NCBI GenBank assembly: GCA_002127285.1
Contig: NFUW01000002.1
Coordinates: forward strand, 1,016,744 to 1,080,743
Reading direction: 5' to 3'
DNA length: 64,000 bases
Source of the DNA: Chitinophagaceae bacterium IBVUCB1
GTDB lineage: Bacteria; Bacteroidota; Bacteroidia; Chitinophagales; Chitinophagaceae
Shown: positions 20,940 through 46,170 of the stretch, piece by piece
How the letters are laid out: each line of letters begins with the position of its first letter
How positions within the stretch are numbered: the stretch's first letter is position 1
Notes under the pieces: generated by a model
What the model saw: only the letters and a program-made list of their open reading frames with translations
What the model was told of the DNA's origin: nothing
The model's database searches: none
Position numbers and translations under genes: made by a program

Positions 20940-20994
20940 TTGTCCATTTGTCCACCAAAACAAATATCTGGACAATGTGGGCAAACTTGGACAA
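20940..20994. repeat. Palindromic heptamer array (TTGTCCA type), solo
   Basis: Forward heptamers TTGTCCA at 20940-20946 and 20948-20954 are followed by a 14-bp A-rich core and reverse units TGGACAA (20969-20975), TGGGCAA (20978-20984) and TGGACAA (20988-20994). The organisation matches the arrays flanking the two cassettes at 35-37 and 45-46 kb, but no mirror copy was found beyond the adjacent DUF2971 gene. Confidence 0.65.
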
Positions 20995-21074
20995 GTCCTT
21001 ATTTCGTGAGATTATTACGCTCCGCTCCATGAGAAAAGTTGCTTAGTACATTGCAAAGACGCGAGTGTGAGAGT

Positions 21075-33837: not shown

Positions 33838-34324
33838 CAATATATACATACTAAGCCAACCCATACACAGCGGCAAAACCACTTTGCTGATGAACTGGCT
33901 GCAACGTACACCCAATACAGCAGGCATACTAACCCCCGATGTAGACAAATGGCGTATGCTATATGACGTTGCTGCCCGCACATACCACCCCTTGCAGGTA
34001 CGTGCCAGCCACCCTGTGAACGACCTTGTGATGATTGGCAAATACCGCTTCAGCAAAACGGGCTTTCACTTGGCACAGCAGCTATTGCTAAAGGGTGCTG
34101 AAAGCAACGCAGAATGGGTGATAGCGGACGAGGTGGGATTGCTGGAAATAAAACAACAAACAGGGCTTGAACCTGCTATTTCAAAAATTATATCTTTGTA
34201 CAATACCCGTCAGGTACAACATAACAAACTACTCTTGGTCATCCGCGACTATCTGCTCGACGATGCAAGGCTTCATTACAAAATAGAAAACGCAACCGTA
34301 CTTGATAAAGCTTTTTTTGAATGA
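33827..34324 (+). CDS. P-loop nucleoside-triphosphatase (THEP1/NTPase_1-like)
   Basis: A 165-residue cytoplasmic protein starting MENNNIYILSQPIHSGKTTL, where HSGKTT is the Walker A motif. WVIADEVGLLEI is a Walker B-type strand with the DE(V/I)G pattern of the THEP1 nucleoside-triphosphatase family. The sequence NTAGILTPDVDKWRMLYDVA also fits that family. The ATG at 33827 lies inside the end of the membrane-protein gene, and the stop overlaps the MobA-like ATG (ATGA). A role as a MobB-like partner of the MobA homologue is possible but unproven. Confidence 0.7.
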   Translation: MENNNIYILSQPIHSGKTTLLMNWLQRTPNTAGILTPDVDKWRMLYDVAARTYHPLQVRASHPVNDLVMIGKYRFSKTGFHLAQQLLLKGAESNAEWVIADEVGLLEIKQQTGLEPAISKIISLYNTRQVQHNKLLLVIRDYLLDDARLHYKIENATVLDKAFFE

Positions 34325-34908
34325 ACGTATTACACGGCCTTGTAGTGTGCGGCGGACAAAGCACACGCATGGGTATGGACAAGAGCCAATTACAATATCA
34401 TGGCTTGCCACAGAGAGAATGGCTGTATGACATGCTGCTACCTCTGTGCGACGATGTATTTATATCCTGCAACGACGAACAAGCCACAGAGATAGGCAAT
34501 AACTACCCCACCATCACAGATGCTACTGCATACAGGCACACTGGCCCTATGGCGGCTCTGCTATCGGCATACAGGCACTACCCCGATGATAATTTTCTGC
34601 TCATCGGCTGCGACTATCCCTACATACGCAAGCACCATATAAGCAAGCTGGCAAACGAATACAACGGCAAAACCACCGTGTACTACAACGACGAAGCCAA
34701 TGTGTACGAACCCCTGTTGGGCATCTATACCCCCGATGTGAGGGACATTGTAATGGCGCAGCACGATATGGGACAATACTCGCTGCAATGGATACTGAAA
34801 CAAACCAATGCACAAAAAATAATACCCGATAACAACGATATACTGCAAAGTATAGACACCCGCATGGGCTATATGGAAGCCCTTGTAAAGCTATCGCAAC
34901 AGTATTAG
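34321..34908 (+). CDS. mobA: MobA-like NTP transferase
   Basis: A 195-residue nucleotidyltransferase. The signature GLVVCGGQSTRMGMDKSQLQ is the MobA/IspD-type GGxSxRMGxDK loop. The metal-binding Asp is in FLLIGCDYPYIRKHHISKLA, the equivalent of 'CDMP' in MobA, and YEPLLGIYTPDV follows as in MobA. MobA attaches GMP to molybdopterin to make MGD. The three-gene operon with a P-loop NTPase and a membrane protein supports a cofactor role, but no other moa/moe gene is in the window, so substrate specificity is inferred. Confidence 0.8.
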   Translation: MNVLHGLVVCGGQSTRMGMDKSQLQYHGLPQREWLYDMLLPLCDDVFISCNDEQATEIGNNYPTITDATAYRHTGPMAALLSAYRHYPDDNFLLIGCDYPYIRKHHISKLANEYNGKTTVYYNDEANVYEPLLGIYTPDVRDIVMAQHDMGQYSLQWILKQTNAQKIIPDNNDILQSIDTRMGYMEALVKLSQQY

Positions 34909-34936
34909 CTACTGCATTTTCACAAATAGTTAGCTG

Positions 34937-35140
34937 GTGTTCCAGTTGTTCTATACCTGAAACATGGAACATTGGAACAAGGGATTGTTTTTGTTCCACT
35001 CGTTCCACCTGTTCTGCAAGTGGAATATTGGAACAATGGAACAAGTGGAACGGATGGAACAGGTAGCCTGTCCCAAACTGTCCCATGTGTCCCGCCTGCC
35101 CCATATATATTATAGTTGGGACAGTGGGACAGTTGGGACA
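34937..35140. repeat. Left ~200-bp inverted repeat of palindromic heptamer arrays
   Basis: Three successive palindromic arrays. The first two use TGTTCCA/TGGAACA (about 34937-34980 and 34991-35062). The third uses TGTCCCA/TGGGACA, with four forward units, an AT-rich core (TATATATTATAGT) and three reverse units ending at 35140. The reverse complement of the block matches 36693-36880 almost along its whole length; the TGTCCCA part differs at only a few of about 63 positions. Together with 35141-35195 it fills the gap after the MobA-like gene. Confidence 0.85.
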
Positions 35141-35195
35141 CTATCCGCTATAAACTATACGTTACATATAGTACATTAGATATTATTATTAACCC

Positions 35196-36683
35196 TTGTC
35201 TTTATTACAAACCATACTACACTACAAGCCATCTGCCCTTGTGCTTACTACCCTGATGTATGGGGTATTGTGTATAGCACAATTAACACATTTACAAATA
35301 CCAAGAAATGCAAATTCGTTTGTGTACGATGAGTACATAGCATATTTAGATAGTGAAAGCAAGCACTCTACTGAACATATAAAACTTATCATTCGAAAAG
35401 CTATACAGAATGAAAAAGAATATAATGCCATTGAAAAAAGAGGTTCTATATTATGTTTTGCTGCACAAAAGCAATCTGAAGTAGTAACTACATATATAGA
35501 CTCTATAAGAAATACAATCACTCTATCTGAAAAAGAGTATGATAAGTATATTGATGACAGTACAATATATAAGCTTACATTACTTATTGGCAACTGTATA
35601 GATTCCTCTGCGAAAATTATCTCATCCCGAGATTGGGAATTTCTACAAAGAGATATATACAACACATTCTGGAAGGATATACCACCGTATCAAACTTGGC
35701 ATAAAACATTATTTAACTACCAACCCAAGAAAGAAGCTATAGCCTTATTGGCAAGCATTAAATTAAATATCCTTATTACAACAGAATACACAGTACATCA
35801 AGCTTACTTAAATAATATGTTTGATAGATTCACTTGTATGCCAATACAAGTAATTGCTCTACCTAACACATCATTTGTATTCAATGGAGAAAAAGCCGCA
35901 GCCACTATGTTTTTTGCTGCATACAACTGGGCTATCGCCCCTACAATTACTACCAATACTAAAAGCAGTATTAAAGTAAAAAATAGAGTGTCAAGCTTAA
36001 CAACCTATGCTAAAACACCTGGCATTAAAATATTATCGGGCACTGCAAGTATAAAAATAAAAGATATTGTGCATACCTATCCTTGGCAAACACAATATTA
36101 TGTAGCTCCAAAGGGCATCTATATGCACGTAGATAATGCCAATAGATGCTATGCAGGCATACCCTTTACTATCAGCATACATGTAGATGATTACAGTGCC
36201 GATAAATTATCATTAAGATGTAAAGATGCTGTAATAAATAAAATAAGAGATAGTATATATACCATCACTACCAATAAAAATGTAAAAGCATGTATGTTAT
36301 ATATGGATGCGGTAAATGCAGATGGCAGCATCAGCCGGTCTATTGCAGCCAAGCACATCAAAGTATTACAACCCATGCCTGATATAGCCATTGGCAATAT
36401 AAAACATGGGATGATAGCTAAAGCATATATACAACAACACGCTTCCCTATCTGCCATAGCAAGAGACGAAGAACTGGATATTACCTACCGCATACGGCAA
36501 TACGATATAAGCTATATAAAAGCTGATAATAAATACATAGAACCCACTACTATACAAGGCAGCACATTGCATATAGACAATACCCTGCAAAGCGGAGACA
36601 GAATGTTTATTACAGACATTGTAGCTACAGACAATTATGGCAATACACACCATATGGCAGGTACTTCTTTTCGAATAGAGTAA
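35196..36683 (+). CDS. GldM-like protein enclosed by inverted repeats
   Basis: A 495-residue protein with one N-terminal membrane helix (ALVLTTLMYGVLCIAQL) and a long periplasmic part. The C-terminal ~100 residues, from HIKVLQPMPDIAIGNIKHGM through GDRMFITDIVATDNYGNTHH to TSFRIE, follow the pattern of the last GldM domain (FRVK.IPdP....G...GG.....ISFKI). GldM is the periplasm-spanning stator of T9SS/gliding motors. This copy has no gldK/L/N neighbours, uses a TTG start, and is clearly AT-richer than mobA and recA. It lies exactly between mirror-image repeats (ending 55 bp before the start and beginning 10 bp after the stop), like a cassette. The role is unknown. Confidence 0.7.
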   Translation: MSLLQTILHYKPSALVLTTLMYGVLCIAQLTHLQIPRNANSFVYDEYIAYLDSESKHSTEHIKLIIRKAIQNEKEYNAIEKRGSILCFAAQKQSEVVTTYIDSIRNTITLSEKEYDKYIDDSTIYKLTLLIGNCIDSSAKIISSRDWEFLQRDIYNTFWKDIPPYQTWHKTLFNYQPKKEAIALLASIKLNILITTEYTVHQAYLNNMFDRFTCMPIQVIALPNTSFVFNGEKAAATMFFAAYNWAIAPTITTNTKSSIKVKNRVSSLTTYAKTPGIKILSGTASIKIKDIVHTYPWQTQYYVAPKGIYMHVDNANRCYAGIPFTISIHVDDYSADKLSLRCKDAVINKIRDSIYTITTNKNVKACMLYMDAVNADGSISRSIAAKHIKVLQPMPDIAIGNIKHGMIAKAYIQQHASLSAIARDEELDITYRIRQYDISYIKADNKYIEPTTIQGSTLHIDNTLQSGDRMFITDIVATDNYGNTHHMAGTSFRIE

Positions 36684-36692
36684 TGGTTCACT

Positions 36693-36880
36693 TGTCCCAC
36701 TGTCCCAGCTACAATATATATGGGGCAGGTGGGACACATGGGACAGTTTGGGACAATCTGCTTGTTCCATTGTTCCAATTGTTCCAATATTCCAGACATA
36801 GAGCAAGTGGAACGAGTGGAACAAAAAACTGCACCTTGTTCCAATGTTCCAATATTTCAAGCGCTGAACAGGTGGAACAG
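36693..36880. repeat. Right ~190-bp inverted repeat of palindromic heptamer arrays
   Basis: Mirror image of 34937-35140. A TGTCCCA array comes first (two forward units at 36693-36707, core with ATATATA, four reverse units to about 36755), then two TGTTCCA/TGGAACA arrays ending in GGTGGAACAG at 36880. Order and spacing of the three arrays are inverted relative to the left copy. Confidence 0.85.
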
Positions 36881-36948
36881 ATTTTCGTACAGCATTCTTT
36901 TCCCCAAGCAAGTATTTACGGGCAATCCATACAAATGTGGATAACTTT

Positions 36949-36977
36949 TTTGTACAAATGTGTAATATTTGTACAAA
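36949..36977. promoter_or_regulatory. Twin TTTGTACAAA operators in the recA promoter
   Basis: The perfect palindrome TTTGTACAAA occurs at 36949-36958 and 36968-36977, centres 19 bp apart (about two helical turns). It lies directly upstream of the recA -7 box, in the -33 region. The arrangement suggests a cooperative repressor such as LexA; the SOS box of this lineage is not known to me. Confidence 0.6.
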
Positions 36978-36984
36978 ACGTTTA

Positions 36985-36993
36985 TATCTTTGA
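36985..36993 (+). promoter_or_regulatory. -7 promoter box for recA
   Basis: TATCTTTGA matches TAnnTTTG, 34 nt before the recA ATG. Confidence 0.65.
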
Positions 36994-37027
36994 AAAAAAT
37001 TAGTTTAGCAGTTTAAATCACAACACA

Positions 37028-38023
37028 ATGGCAGCAGACGAAAAATTAAAAGTATTAAAGCTCGCTCTCGACAAGATAGAGAAGGACTATGGCAAGGGCT
37101 CGGTTATGATGCTGGGCGACAAGAAAAGTGATGGTATAGAAACCATCAGTACAGGTTCATTAGGATTGGATGTAGCATTAGGTGTTGGCGGTTTTCCGCG
37201 CGGGCGTATTATAGAGATATACGGCCCTGAATCTTCGGGTAAAACAACGATAGCCATCCATACCATTGCAGAGGCGCAAAAGAAAGGTGGTATCTGCGCT
37301 ATTATAGATGCGGAGCATGCTTTTGACGCGGCCTATGCACGCAAGCTGGGGGTGGATATAGATAACCTCATCATCTCTCAACCAGACTATGGCGAGCAGG
37401 CACTGGAAATAGCCGACCGCCTTATATCATCGGGTGCTATAGACGTAGTAGTGATAGACTCTGTCGCCGCACTGGTACCCAAAGGCGAACTGGAAGGCGA
37501 AATGGGCGATAGCAAAATGGGCTTGCAGGCACGCCTCATGAGCCAAGCACTTCGCAAGCTGACGGCTACCATCAACCGTACAGGCTGTTGCTGCATATTC
37601 ATCAACCAGCTACGCGAAAAGATTGGTGTAATGTTTGGCAACCCCGAAACTACTACGGGTGGTAACGCCTTGAAGTTCTATGCTTCTGTACGTTTAGACA
37701 TCCGCCGCATCAGCCAGATAAAAGACGGCGATGTAGCCAGTGGCAACCGTACCCGTGTAAAAGTGGTGAAGAACAAAGTAGCACCACCTTTCCGTCAGGT
37801 AGAGTTTGACATCATATTCGGCGAGGGCATCAGCAAGATTGGTGAGATAATAGACATGGGTGTAGAACTGAACATATTGCAGAAAAGCGGTTCGTGGTTT
37901 AGCTACGGCGATAGTAAGATAGGACAAGGGCGCGATGCCGTTAAGCAGTTCCTTACAGACAACCCCGAAGTAGCAGAGCAGATAGAAGGACAGATACGTG
38001 CAGCACTACAACCTGCGGAATAA
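37028..38023 (+). CDS. recA: Recombinase RecA
   Basis: A 331-residue RecA of normal length and domain order. Walker A is [16 protein letters not shown], Walker B lies in [20 protein letters not shown], the L1 region follows, the L2 loop is [20 protein letters not shown], and the C-terminal domain ends in [11 protein letters not shown]. RecA forms filaments on single-stranded DNA for strand exchange and triggers LexA self-cleavage. The promoter contains two TTTGTACAAA palindromes that could mediate SOS control. A terminator follows at 38124. Confidence 0.98.
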
Positions 38024-44771: not shown

Positions 44772-44836
44772 ACAACGTAATACAATCAAGGCCGTCATGC
44801 CGCCGAAAGGCGGTATCTCCTGAGCATTTGTACTGT

Positions 44837-44898
44837 TGCTCCATCTTTGCTCCACTTGCTCCAATTATAGTAGTTTGGATTTGTGGAGCACTGGAGCA
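44837..44898. repeat. Left inverted copy of a TGCTCCA palindromic heptamer array
   Basis: TGCTCCA units at 44837-44843, 44848-44854 and 44857-44863, a 20-bp core, then TGGAGCA at 44884-44890 and 44892-44898. The reverse complement closely matches 46110-46170: the cores differ at only three of 20 positions and the unit count is inverted (3+2 versus 2+3). Confidence 0.85.
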
Positions 44899-44952
44899 AG
44901 GTGGGTGGTTTGAGATTATTAATTATTAACTTTATTATCATAATCTACTTTG

Positions 44953-45348
44953 ATGAAAATTATCATCATATCCATACTGCTATTATTATGTTATACATCA
45001 TATTGCCAAACACAATATGACTTGAATATGGAAGCAAAAGAAGCATTTCAAAAAGCGGATAGTGAACTTAATATAATCTATAAGAAAGTAATTAAACTAC
45101 ATAGTGCTGATTCTATATTTATCAGTAACCTAAAAAAATCGCAAAGATTATGGACACAGTTCAGAGATGCAGAAATGGATATGATGTATCCTGATTATGG
45201 ACCTCTTTATCCTTATGGTAGTGTCCGTCCAATGTGTTGGAGTTATTACAAAGAAAGTCTTACCAGAGAAAGAATTAAAACCTTAATGCAATGGATTGTT
45301 GGTATTGATGAAGGGGATGTATGTCGAGGAACAATACCCTCGAAATAG
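44953..45348 (+). CDS. LprI/DUF1311-like secreted protein
   Basis: A 131-residue secreted protein with signal peptide MKIIIISILLLLCYTSYCQ. The mature part TQYDLNMEAKEAFQKADSEL, NIIYKKVIKLHSADSIFISN and LKKSQRLWTQFRDAEMDMMY matches the lysozyme-inhibitor LprI N-terminal family pattern (alpha-helical, 'kaD.eLN.vY.....L....k..L..aQr.W..frda'). Cys residues near the C-terminus may pair. The gene is AT-rich and is the first of three genes between mirrored heptamer arrays. A TTG three bases upstream is an alternative start. Confidence 0.78.
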   Translation: MKIIIISILLLLCYTSYCQTQYDLNMEAKEAFQKADSELNIIYKKVIKLHSADSIFISNLKKSQRLWTQFRDAEMDMMYPDYGPLYPYGSVRPMCWSYYKESLTRERIKTLMQWIVGIDEGDVCRGTIPSK

Positions 45349-45409
45349 GAATTAGAACACTCCGAAAATCGATAAACATTTCGTAATTTCAATAAACAAG
45401 CAATGCTTT

Positions 45410-45658
45410 ATGAAAGTAGCGGAAATACGGGAACGTTTGCAATATTTTATACAAACAGCAGAAGAGAAGAAACTGAAAGCTATTTATACACTTGTAGAAG
45501 ATGACATTGCAGAACAAAGCCTTTGGGAAGACGAAAGTTTTGTATCAGAGATGGAAACACGCTATAATGAATATAAATCCAGTAAGGTTAAAACATCTAC
45601 ACTGGAACAGGTAGAAACCAAAGCAAGGCAGGCCGCAAAATACCTGAAACGCAAGTAA
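45410..45658 (+). CDS. Probable antitoxin of a ParE-type module
   Basis: An 82-residue protein, MKVAEIRERLQYFIQTAEEK, with helical, strongly charged middle and C-terminus (EQVETKARQAAKYLKRK). It is followed 6 bp later by a ParE/RelE-superfamily toxin gene, an arrangement typical of toxin-antitoxin operons. The sequence LKAIYTLVEDDIAEQSLWED resembles small 'addiction module' antitoxins of Bacteroidota that bind their toxin through a long helix. No clear DNA-binding motif is seen. AT-rich, within the repeat-bounded cassette. Confidence 0.75.
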   Translation: MKVAEIRERLQYFIQTAEEKKLKAIYTLVEDDIAEQSLWEDESFVSEMETRYNEYKSSKVKTSTLEQVETKARQAAKYLKRK

Positions 45659-45664
45659 GCTGTC

Positions 45665-45955
45665 ATGCTTTTCACTTACGAATTATTACCAAAGGCTGAA
45701 GAAGAATACATCAATGCCTACTTGTGGTACGAAGAACAACAACAGGGTTTAGGAGAAAAGTTTGCTAAAGCTGTAAGAGGAAAACTTGACAAAATAACAT
45801 CAAACCCTAAGCTCTACTACATCAGGAAAGGTGTTTTCAGAGAAGCAGTATTGGACAATTTCCCTTTTATTATCGTCTTCATTATTGAAGAAAGCAATAT
45901 TATTATCGCATCAATTTTTCATACAAAAAGAAACCCTTCAAAAAAATATAGGTAA
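45665..45955 (+). CDS. ParE/RelE-superfamily toxin
   Basis: A 96-residue protein with the RelE/ParE fold pattern: YELLPKAEEEYINAYLWYEE (first helices), LGEKFAKAVRGKLDKITSNP, then strands REAVLDNFPFIIVFIIEESN and IIIASIFHTKRNPSKKY. The residue pattern F.Y.i.f.i....i.i..i.H..R.p is that of ParE-type gyrase poisons more than RelE ribonucleases. It is coupled to the preceding antitoxin gene. About 155 bp separate it from the right inverted repeat. Confidence 0.85.
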   Translation: MLFTYELLPKAEEEYINAYLWYEEQQQGLGEKFAKAVRGKLDKITSNPKLYYIRKGVFREAVLDNFPFIIVFIIEESNIIIASIFHTKRNPSKKYR

Positions 45956-46109
45956 ACATGCAATGCCATAGTTTGTATTCAGACATAGCACCATAGCCTT
46001 TGTAAATAAAAAGCTTGGCAACACAATAGATAACACATACACCAATCCTGCAGGGGTATAAAAATCTCGATGTTTTTAAACTATAGCCCCATACGGAGGC
46101 AAGTGTATC

Positions 46110-46170
46110 TGCTCCACTTGCTCCACAAATCCAGACCAGTATAATTGGAGCACTGGAGCAGCATGGAGCA
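46110..46170. repeat. Right inverted copy of a TGCTCCA palindromic heptamer array
   Basis: TGCTCCA at 46110-46116 and 46119-46125, a 20-bp core, then TGGAGCA at 46146-46152, 46154-46160 and 46164-46170. It is the mirror image of 44837-44898 and closes the three-gene cassette. Confidence 0.85.

Follow-up and report, generated by a model that had tools for sequence, protein, structure and literature searches.

The closest described relatives of the locus reported here are found in plasmid replication and among mobilisable transposons. Replication of pRN1 requires a stem-loop that lies downstream of the Rep gene, still works when relocated, and keeps its shape between relatives while its sequence varies (PMC4234260). 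In IncQ plasmids, a helicase and a primase act at ssiA and ssiB, single-stranded DNA is released, and satellites without rep genes depend on helpers (PMC6925257). In Tn4555-type elements, homologues of an AAA_25 ATPase carrying an HTH domain (AAA_25-HTH) sit beside DUF6371 and mobilisation genes, and the Butyricimonas plasmid NZ_CP032820 has a TGTCCCA array between its AAA_25-HTH and DUF6371 genes. We have analysed a window of 64,000 nucleotides from the genome of Chitinophagaceae bacterium IBVUCB1 (G000; other G numbers denote compared genomes and L numbers loci) in which one gene stands between mirrored blocks of heptamer arrays, and which bears on the open question of how single defence genes change rapidly at fixed chromosomal spots.

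Reading the sequence from 34300 to 37500 bore out the original prediction of a left block (34937-35140) holding arrays in the order TGTTCCA, TGTTCCA, TGTCCCA and of a right block (36693-36880) that is its reverse complement, in the order TGTCCCA, TGTTCCA, TGTTCCA. On the left, the outer TGTTCCA array lies at 34938..34979 (sequence read and folding), the middle TGTTCCA array at 34992..35061 and the inner TGTCCCA array at 35069..35140; on the right, the inner TGTCCCA array, reverse complement of its left counterpart, lies at 36693..36755, followed by the middle and outer TGTTCCA arrays at 36763..36823 and 36837..36879, the last five arrays being also recovered by repeat search. That each array is itself a palindrome was likewise upheld, and all of them fold as hairpins better than shuffled sequences, with z values from inner to outer of -6.3, -4.3 and -2.4 on the left and -4.2, -6.0 and -2.9 on the right. 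The repeat search paired inverted arms at 35054-35131 / 36693-36770 (78 nt, 91% complementary), 34988-35051 / 36764-36827 (64 nt, 81%) and 35002-35045 / 36835-36878 (44 nt, 86%). As predicted, the blocks bracket one AT-rich gene; the gaps are 55 nt before its start and 9 nt after its stop, and GC content is 0.34 inside the cassette versus 0.45 in the flank. Outside the cassette, on the same plus strand as the cargo, lie a mobA-like gene to the left (34321..34908; NTP_transf_3, 5.8e-27) and recA to the right (37028..38023; RecA, 1.9e-140). Array pairs sharing a motif occurred twice in the 64-kb window and never in order-1 Markov controls (three per sequence, ~1.4 Mb in total), and 400 kb sampled from the same genome held no further pair. 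The mirrored blocks are confirmed and are not a product of chance. No known RNA family was detected at 34800-37100, and intrinsic terminators were considered and rejected, for although the arrays form hairpins, terminator prediction yielded no site with a T-run there.

The cargo gene (35196..36683, plus strand, GC 0.34) begins with a TTG codon at 35196, its stop codon ends at 36683, and it encodes a GldM-like protein of 495 aa that scores with the Pfam families GldM_2nd (5.7e-8) and GldM_4th (2.1e-6), its match to the NCBIfam GldM model falling below that model's cut-off. Bracketed homologues were found in G002 (47% identity, with the same heptamers as in the window) and in G007 (33% identity, with GTTCA-type arrays). 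The protein has no match to known anti-phage families, and a role in phage defence or in the envelope is a guess on our part.

The expectation that other single AT-rich genes would be bracketed by the same kind of array pair proved correct, both in this genome and across the genus. The window itself contains a second bracketed cassette (44836-46170), whose heptamer differs from that of the GldM-like cassette: a left array of motif GCTCCA (44836..44899) and an inverted right array (46110..46170), both found by array search and folding, enclose an LprI-like gene, a small ORF and a ParE-like toxin gene on the plus strand (44950..45955; Pfam LprI 1.4e-17, ParE_toxin 1.3e-7). A pattern search of the whole G000 genome found an AIPR gene at C2:541468-543645 bracketed by the same array type, as well as a solitary array following a DUF3987-HTH gene. 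Both heptamers of the GldM-like cassette also stand behind HTH genes of this genome: the helicase-HTH gene G000:C2:540370 carries a TGTCCCA array and the DUF3987-HTH gene G000:C2:364818 a TGTTCCA array. At L312, also in G000, the full order is helicase, array, bSEFIR-like gene, array, DUF6371 gene. At 20940-20996 of the window, REP-like repeats flank an isolated palindromic array of the TTGTCCA type; this array may be the solo remnant of a lost cassette.

Among the 61 genomes searched, the strict TGTCCCA array is present in 10 of the 15 genomes of the genus and in 0 of the 46 others, and TGTTCCA arrays occur in nine of the 15. In the stretches fetched from the genus, array pairs enclose AT-rich cargo of 0.4-2.6 kb with one to three genes per cassette; GC averages 0.319 inside and 0.447 outside, being lower inside in 30 of 30 cassettes (Wilcoxon p 2e-9), and the ends are inverted in 26 of the 30. 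By family matches, the cargo includes defence-like proteins (bSEFIR, AIPR/AbiU, SIR2/ThsA, OLD/GajA-like, ApeA, TIR and Fic/PDC-S04), so that several cassettes outside the window carry members of anti-phage families, together with a ParE-type toxin, GldM-like, TonB_C/MORN and LprI-like proteins and unknown proteins; about half of the examined cargoes, the GldM-like one among them, have no defence match. The notion that only TGTYCCA arrays are used was discarded, for the arrays that follow paralogues are built from GCCCA, GTCCA, GCTCA, GCTCC, TTCAC, GTTCAA, GTTTCA, GTTCG, GTTACA, TCGTAC and still other motifs. Some single loci deserve mention in their own right. In G004, four tandem TGTCCCA arrays about 114 nt apart lie on one side of a cassette (L097:5635-6037), and arrays can thus be amplified. 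At L018, L097 and L100, one cassette end has array cores terminating in GGTACGG and the opposite end has cores terminating in GGTTTTC, so the two ends seem distinguishable by their core in two species with different cargo. Finally, the records of L202 and L203 (JANLJF010000110.1 and JANLJF010000157.1) bear the title 'Azovibrio restrictus' although the genes on them belong to this Bacteroidota genus; as their positions match genome G011, the title is probably wrong.

The original prediction had called for a protein that recognises the arrays and for a co-occurring recombinase; a family of proteins that would probably recognise them does co-occur with the arrays, but it consists of helicases of the replicative type that carry an HTH domain, not of recombinases. 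Next to the arrays lie genes for an AAA_25 ATPase whose C-terminus is an HTH, or for a DUF3987 protein, and most of the latter also end in a C-terminal HTH. In the genus, nearly every AAA_25-HTH gene has a palindromic array of its own motif behind it, and the same holds for 80 of 94 helicase loci taken mostly from across Bacteroidota and in part from viral contigs, against 61 of 874 random windows and 49 of 327 other stop codons (the criterion for an array being four or more copies of an inverted 6-mer no more than 200 nt from the stop). Repeated sites or a hairpin next to a Rep-type gene, as in iteron or stem-loop origins, are accordingly present at 80/94 loci. The class of the HTH and the motif of the array go together (1.41 bits, 0/5000 shuffles), with all 21 SLGAVNKY-type HTHs accompanied by GTTCA and 24 of 27 SHMKV- and NxMKV-type HTHs by GTAAC, and a modest correlation persists given ATPase identity (partial Mantel r 0.19, 0/2000). 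In two within-genome paralogue pairs, the ATPase parts are 99-100% identical, the HTHs 43-55% identical and the arrays and cargo unrelated, homology stopping 105-150 nt before the stop codon; the orthologous loci L197 and L198 align collinearly until 137 nt ahead of the helicase stop, differ throughout the stretch that follows, and become collinear once more at the second array. These cases imply that the recognition domain, the arrays and the cargo were replaced as one block, and this block replacement is the strongest evidence that the HTH probably reads the array. As a separate observation, DUF3987-HTH genes at L019:4419-6252 and at L163-L168 have arrays of their own behind them, and in several species such loci are followed by a conserved gene of about 100 aa rather than by AT-rich cargo.

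Elsewhere in Bacteroidota, as in Tn4555-type elements, the helicase-HTH gene is usually followed by one array and then by the gene for a DUF6371 protein, which we read from its sequence as a putative primase-like protein with a zinc ribbon and a TOPRIM-like domain. A DUF6371 gene lies within 500 nt in 68 loci and is displaced to 1.7-3.6 kb by cargo and a second array at several loci of the genus and at L233 and L268. The module of helicase, array and DUF6371 gene with cargo inserted is found at L195, L197, L198, L200, L206 and L312 and is absent at the orphan cassette of the window. Where a helicase gene accompanies the cassette, its HTH tail varies in concert with the arrays and the cargo, whereas its ATPase part and the DUF6371 gene further downstream are retained. 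The modelled helicase adopts the RecA-type fold of hexameric helicases (mean pLDDT 86), and RSF1010 RepA, T7 gp4, DnaB, RadA and KaiC all score near Z 20 against it, tied. The matching proteins do not always accompany the cassettes: G002, G006 and G008 yielded no helicase with a TGTYCCA motif despite their TGTYCCA cassettes, so that a matching helicase in every genome with orphan cassettes had to be abandoned as a rule, and none of the helicases found in G000 matches the GCTCCA cassette of the window.

One may wonder whether these proteins simply regulate the cargo. The helicase-HTH protein would then bind the flanking arrays as operators or insulators, silencing a costly effector by looping or by blocking transcription and releasing it upon phage infection, and cargo would be exchanged by ordinary homologous recombination. 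We find this unlikely, even though in most helicase-linked copies the helicase and the cargo are co-directional with the first array between them, some cargo genes encode effectors harmful to the cell, and co-variation of HTH and motif suits operators equally. An operator needs neither a second array behind the cargo nor orphan cassettes far from any helicase, and the array is kept between the helicase and DUF6371 genes even where there is no cargo.

Comparison of chromosomal sites gives another view of the cassettes. The fdhD-mobA interval holds cassettes with differing cargoes in four species, and in three array-less relatives fdhD adjoins mobA, ~140-177 nt apart, with no cassette. At the nifS-side site, the alignment of G002 with G006 runs at 92% through the left block, breaks off over the cargoes (GldM-like and SIR2, respectively) and resumes at the right block, flank homology extending past the arrays. 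Judging from such alignments, the array blocks at shared sites persist between sister species as the cargo is replaced, and this exchange suggests that cassettes may move independently. At the window's own site, the cassette joins mobA to recA, which are not neighbours in the relatives, and there is therefore no ancestral empty mobA-recA junction. In addition, G000 has 715 kb between nifS and recA, whereas in G002, G006 and G008 nifS stands beside a cassette next to or near recA, so that the cassette site of G000 is a rearrangement breakpoint.

The proposal of a non-autonomous mobile cassette is thus sustained in part: cargo differs at shared sites and array-less relatives lack the insert, but target-site duplications, sought at 30 cassettes, do not stand out, and the element is not a usual transposon or MITE. 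Movement of an ordinary element of this kind by an unseen transposase would explain why inverted array blocks end the cargo, like terminal inverted repeats. Tn7-like elements have several binding sites per end, so that multi-site ends have a parallel there. This explanation was nonetheless already disfavoured and appears very improbable to us, given that the word shared by the two edges measures 3.17 nt versus 3.46 in controls (longest 5), that scanning the genes within the cassettes and next to them revealed no transposase, and that the end sequence varies with the HTH of the neighbouring helicase. The same sites could be viewed as passive spots, where arrays are old, immobile repeats that merely provide homology for cargo replacement through natural transformation or another route of DNA uptake, the orphan sites being no longer acted on by any protein. 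Such a view, which we judge decidedly improbable, would accommodate the several genomes in which no helicase was found to match the orphan arrays, the flank homology beyond the arrays and the breakpoint in G000, but it sits poorly with orphan arrays that retain both heptamers and palindromy and with the co-variation of HTH, array and cargo as a module.

Taken together, we favour, with a probability of roughly 0.55, the reading that the window feature belongs to a family of exchangeable single-gene cassettes whose ends are arrays of the replication-origin type. The anatomy, the cargo exchange and the co-variation of HTH and motif can be read directly from the compared sequences; binding, initiation, copying and replicative or trans mobilisation are suggested by analogy. 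By analogy with the pRN1 stem-loop and with IncQ ssiA and ssiB, the arrays are predicted to be binding sites of the hairpin or iteron type at which the AAA_25-HTH helicase and its primase-like partner would initiate. A gene between two inverted arrays would be unwound or copied as a unit, the helicase acting in cis or, on orphan cassettes such as that of the window, in trans, with G000:C2:540370 (helicase-HTH) and G000:C2:364818 (DUF3987-HTH) as likely partners, and RecA-type recombination would then swap the cassette copies into other array pairs; cargo exchange could also come from plain homologous recombination across the conserved flanks. It is tempting to go further and to propose, with slightly more doubt than belief, a transposase-free system in which a replicative helicase with a swappable DNA-binding tail and a primase-like partner delimit, copy and spread single defence genes, HTH, arrays and cargo would form one specificity module, and cassettes without a helicase would be satellites mobilised in trans.

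Cassettes at shared sites point to an undescribed, transposase-free swapping of single defence genes. They form a recurrent unit defined by sequence, whose ends are conserved and whose cargo varies and is often antiviral, with a co-varying candidate protein and no recombinase seen. The pattern is searchable for new defence genes, unknown AT-rich genes between arrays being good candidates, and it offers a directly testable code of recognition between HTH and heptamer. It may also connect the plasmid way of initiating replication with chromosomal gene exchange. We found no description of this cassette system in the open-access full texts searched, which is weak evidence that none exists; the components are of known kinds and, to our knowledge, the cassette system built from them is new. 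Set against transposons and MITEs, integrons and Tn4555-type elements, the cassettes lack a defining part of each, as far as their sites and neighbouring genes were scanned.

Tn4555/NBU-type mobilisable transposons of Bacteroides resemble the cassettes in having homologous AAA_25-HTH and DUF6371 genes side by side. They differ in that no integrase, excisionase or relaxase occurs among the genes scanned around the cassettes, whereas the Bacteroides plasmid copies have them, and in that the cassettes place cargo and a second array between the helicase and DUF6371 genes, orphans having neither gene. The pRN1 type shares a Rep protein made of a helicase with a C-terminal DNA-binding domain and a hairpin right behind the gene (PMC4234260), but its Rep combines prim/pol with an SF3 helicase where ours is a RecA-fold helicase, and here two inverted hairpins bracket a chromosomal cargo. 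With RSF1010 and IncQ plasmids the likeness lies in the RepA fold (Z 20, a score equalled by other RecA-fold ATPases) and in a helicase and primase acting at hairpins; these systems have a separate iteron-binding RepC, are plasmid-borne and not chromosomal, and have no cargo exchange described. Integron cassettes (attC) are likewise single-gene, variable, often defence-related and provided with folded ends, yet the ends described here are inverted and not direct, cargo is swapped at many scattered sites, and neither integron integrase nor attC was found among the genes scanned at cassette sites. Tn7-like transposons (PMC8649781) also carry defence cargo and several protein-binding sites per end; by comparison, the cassettes show no TnsA/B/C genes or target duplication, hold one to three cargo genes, and occupy sites that are fixed and common to several species.
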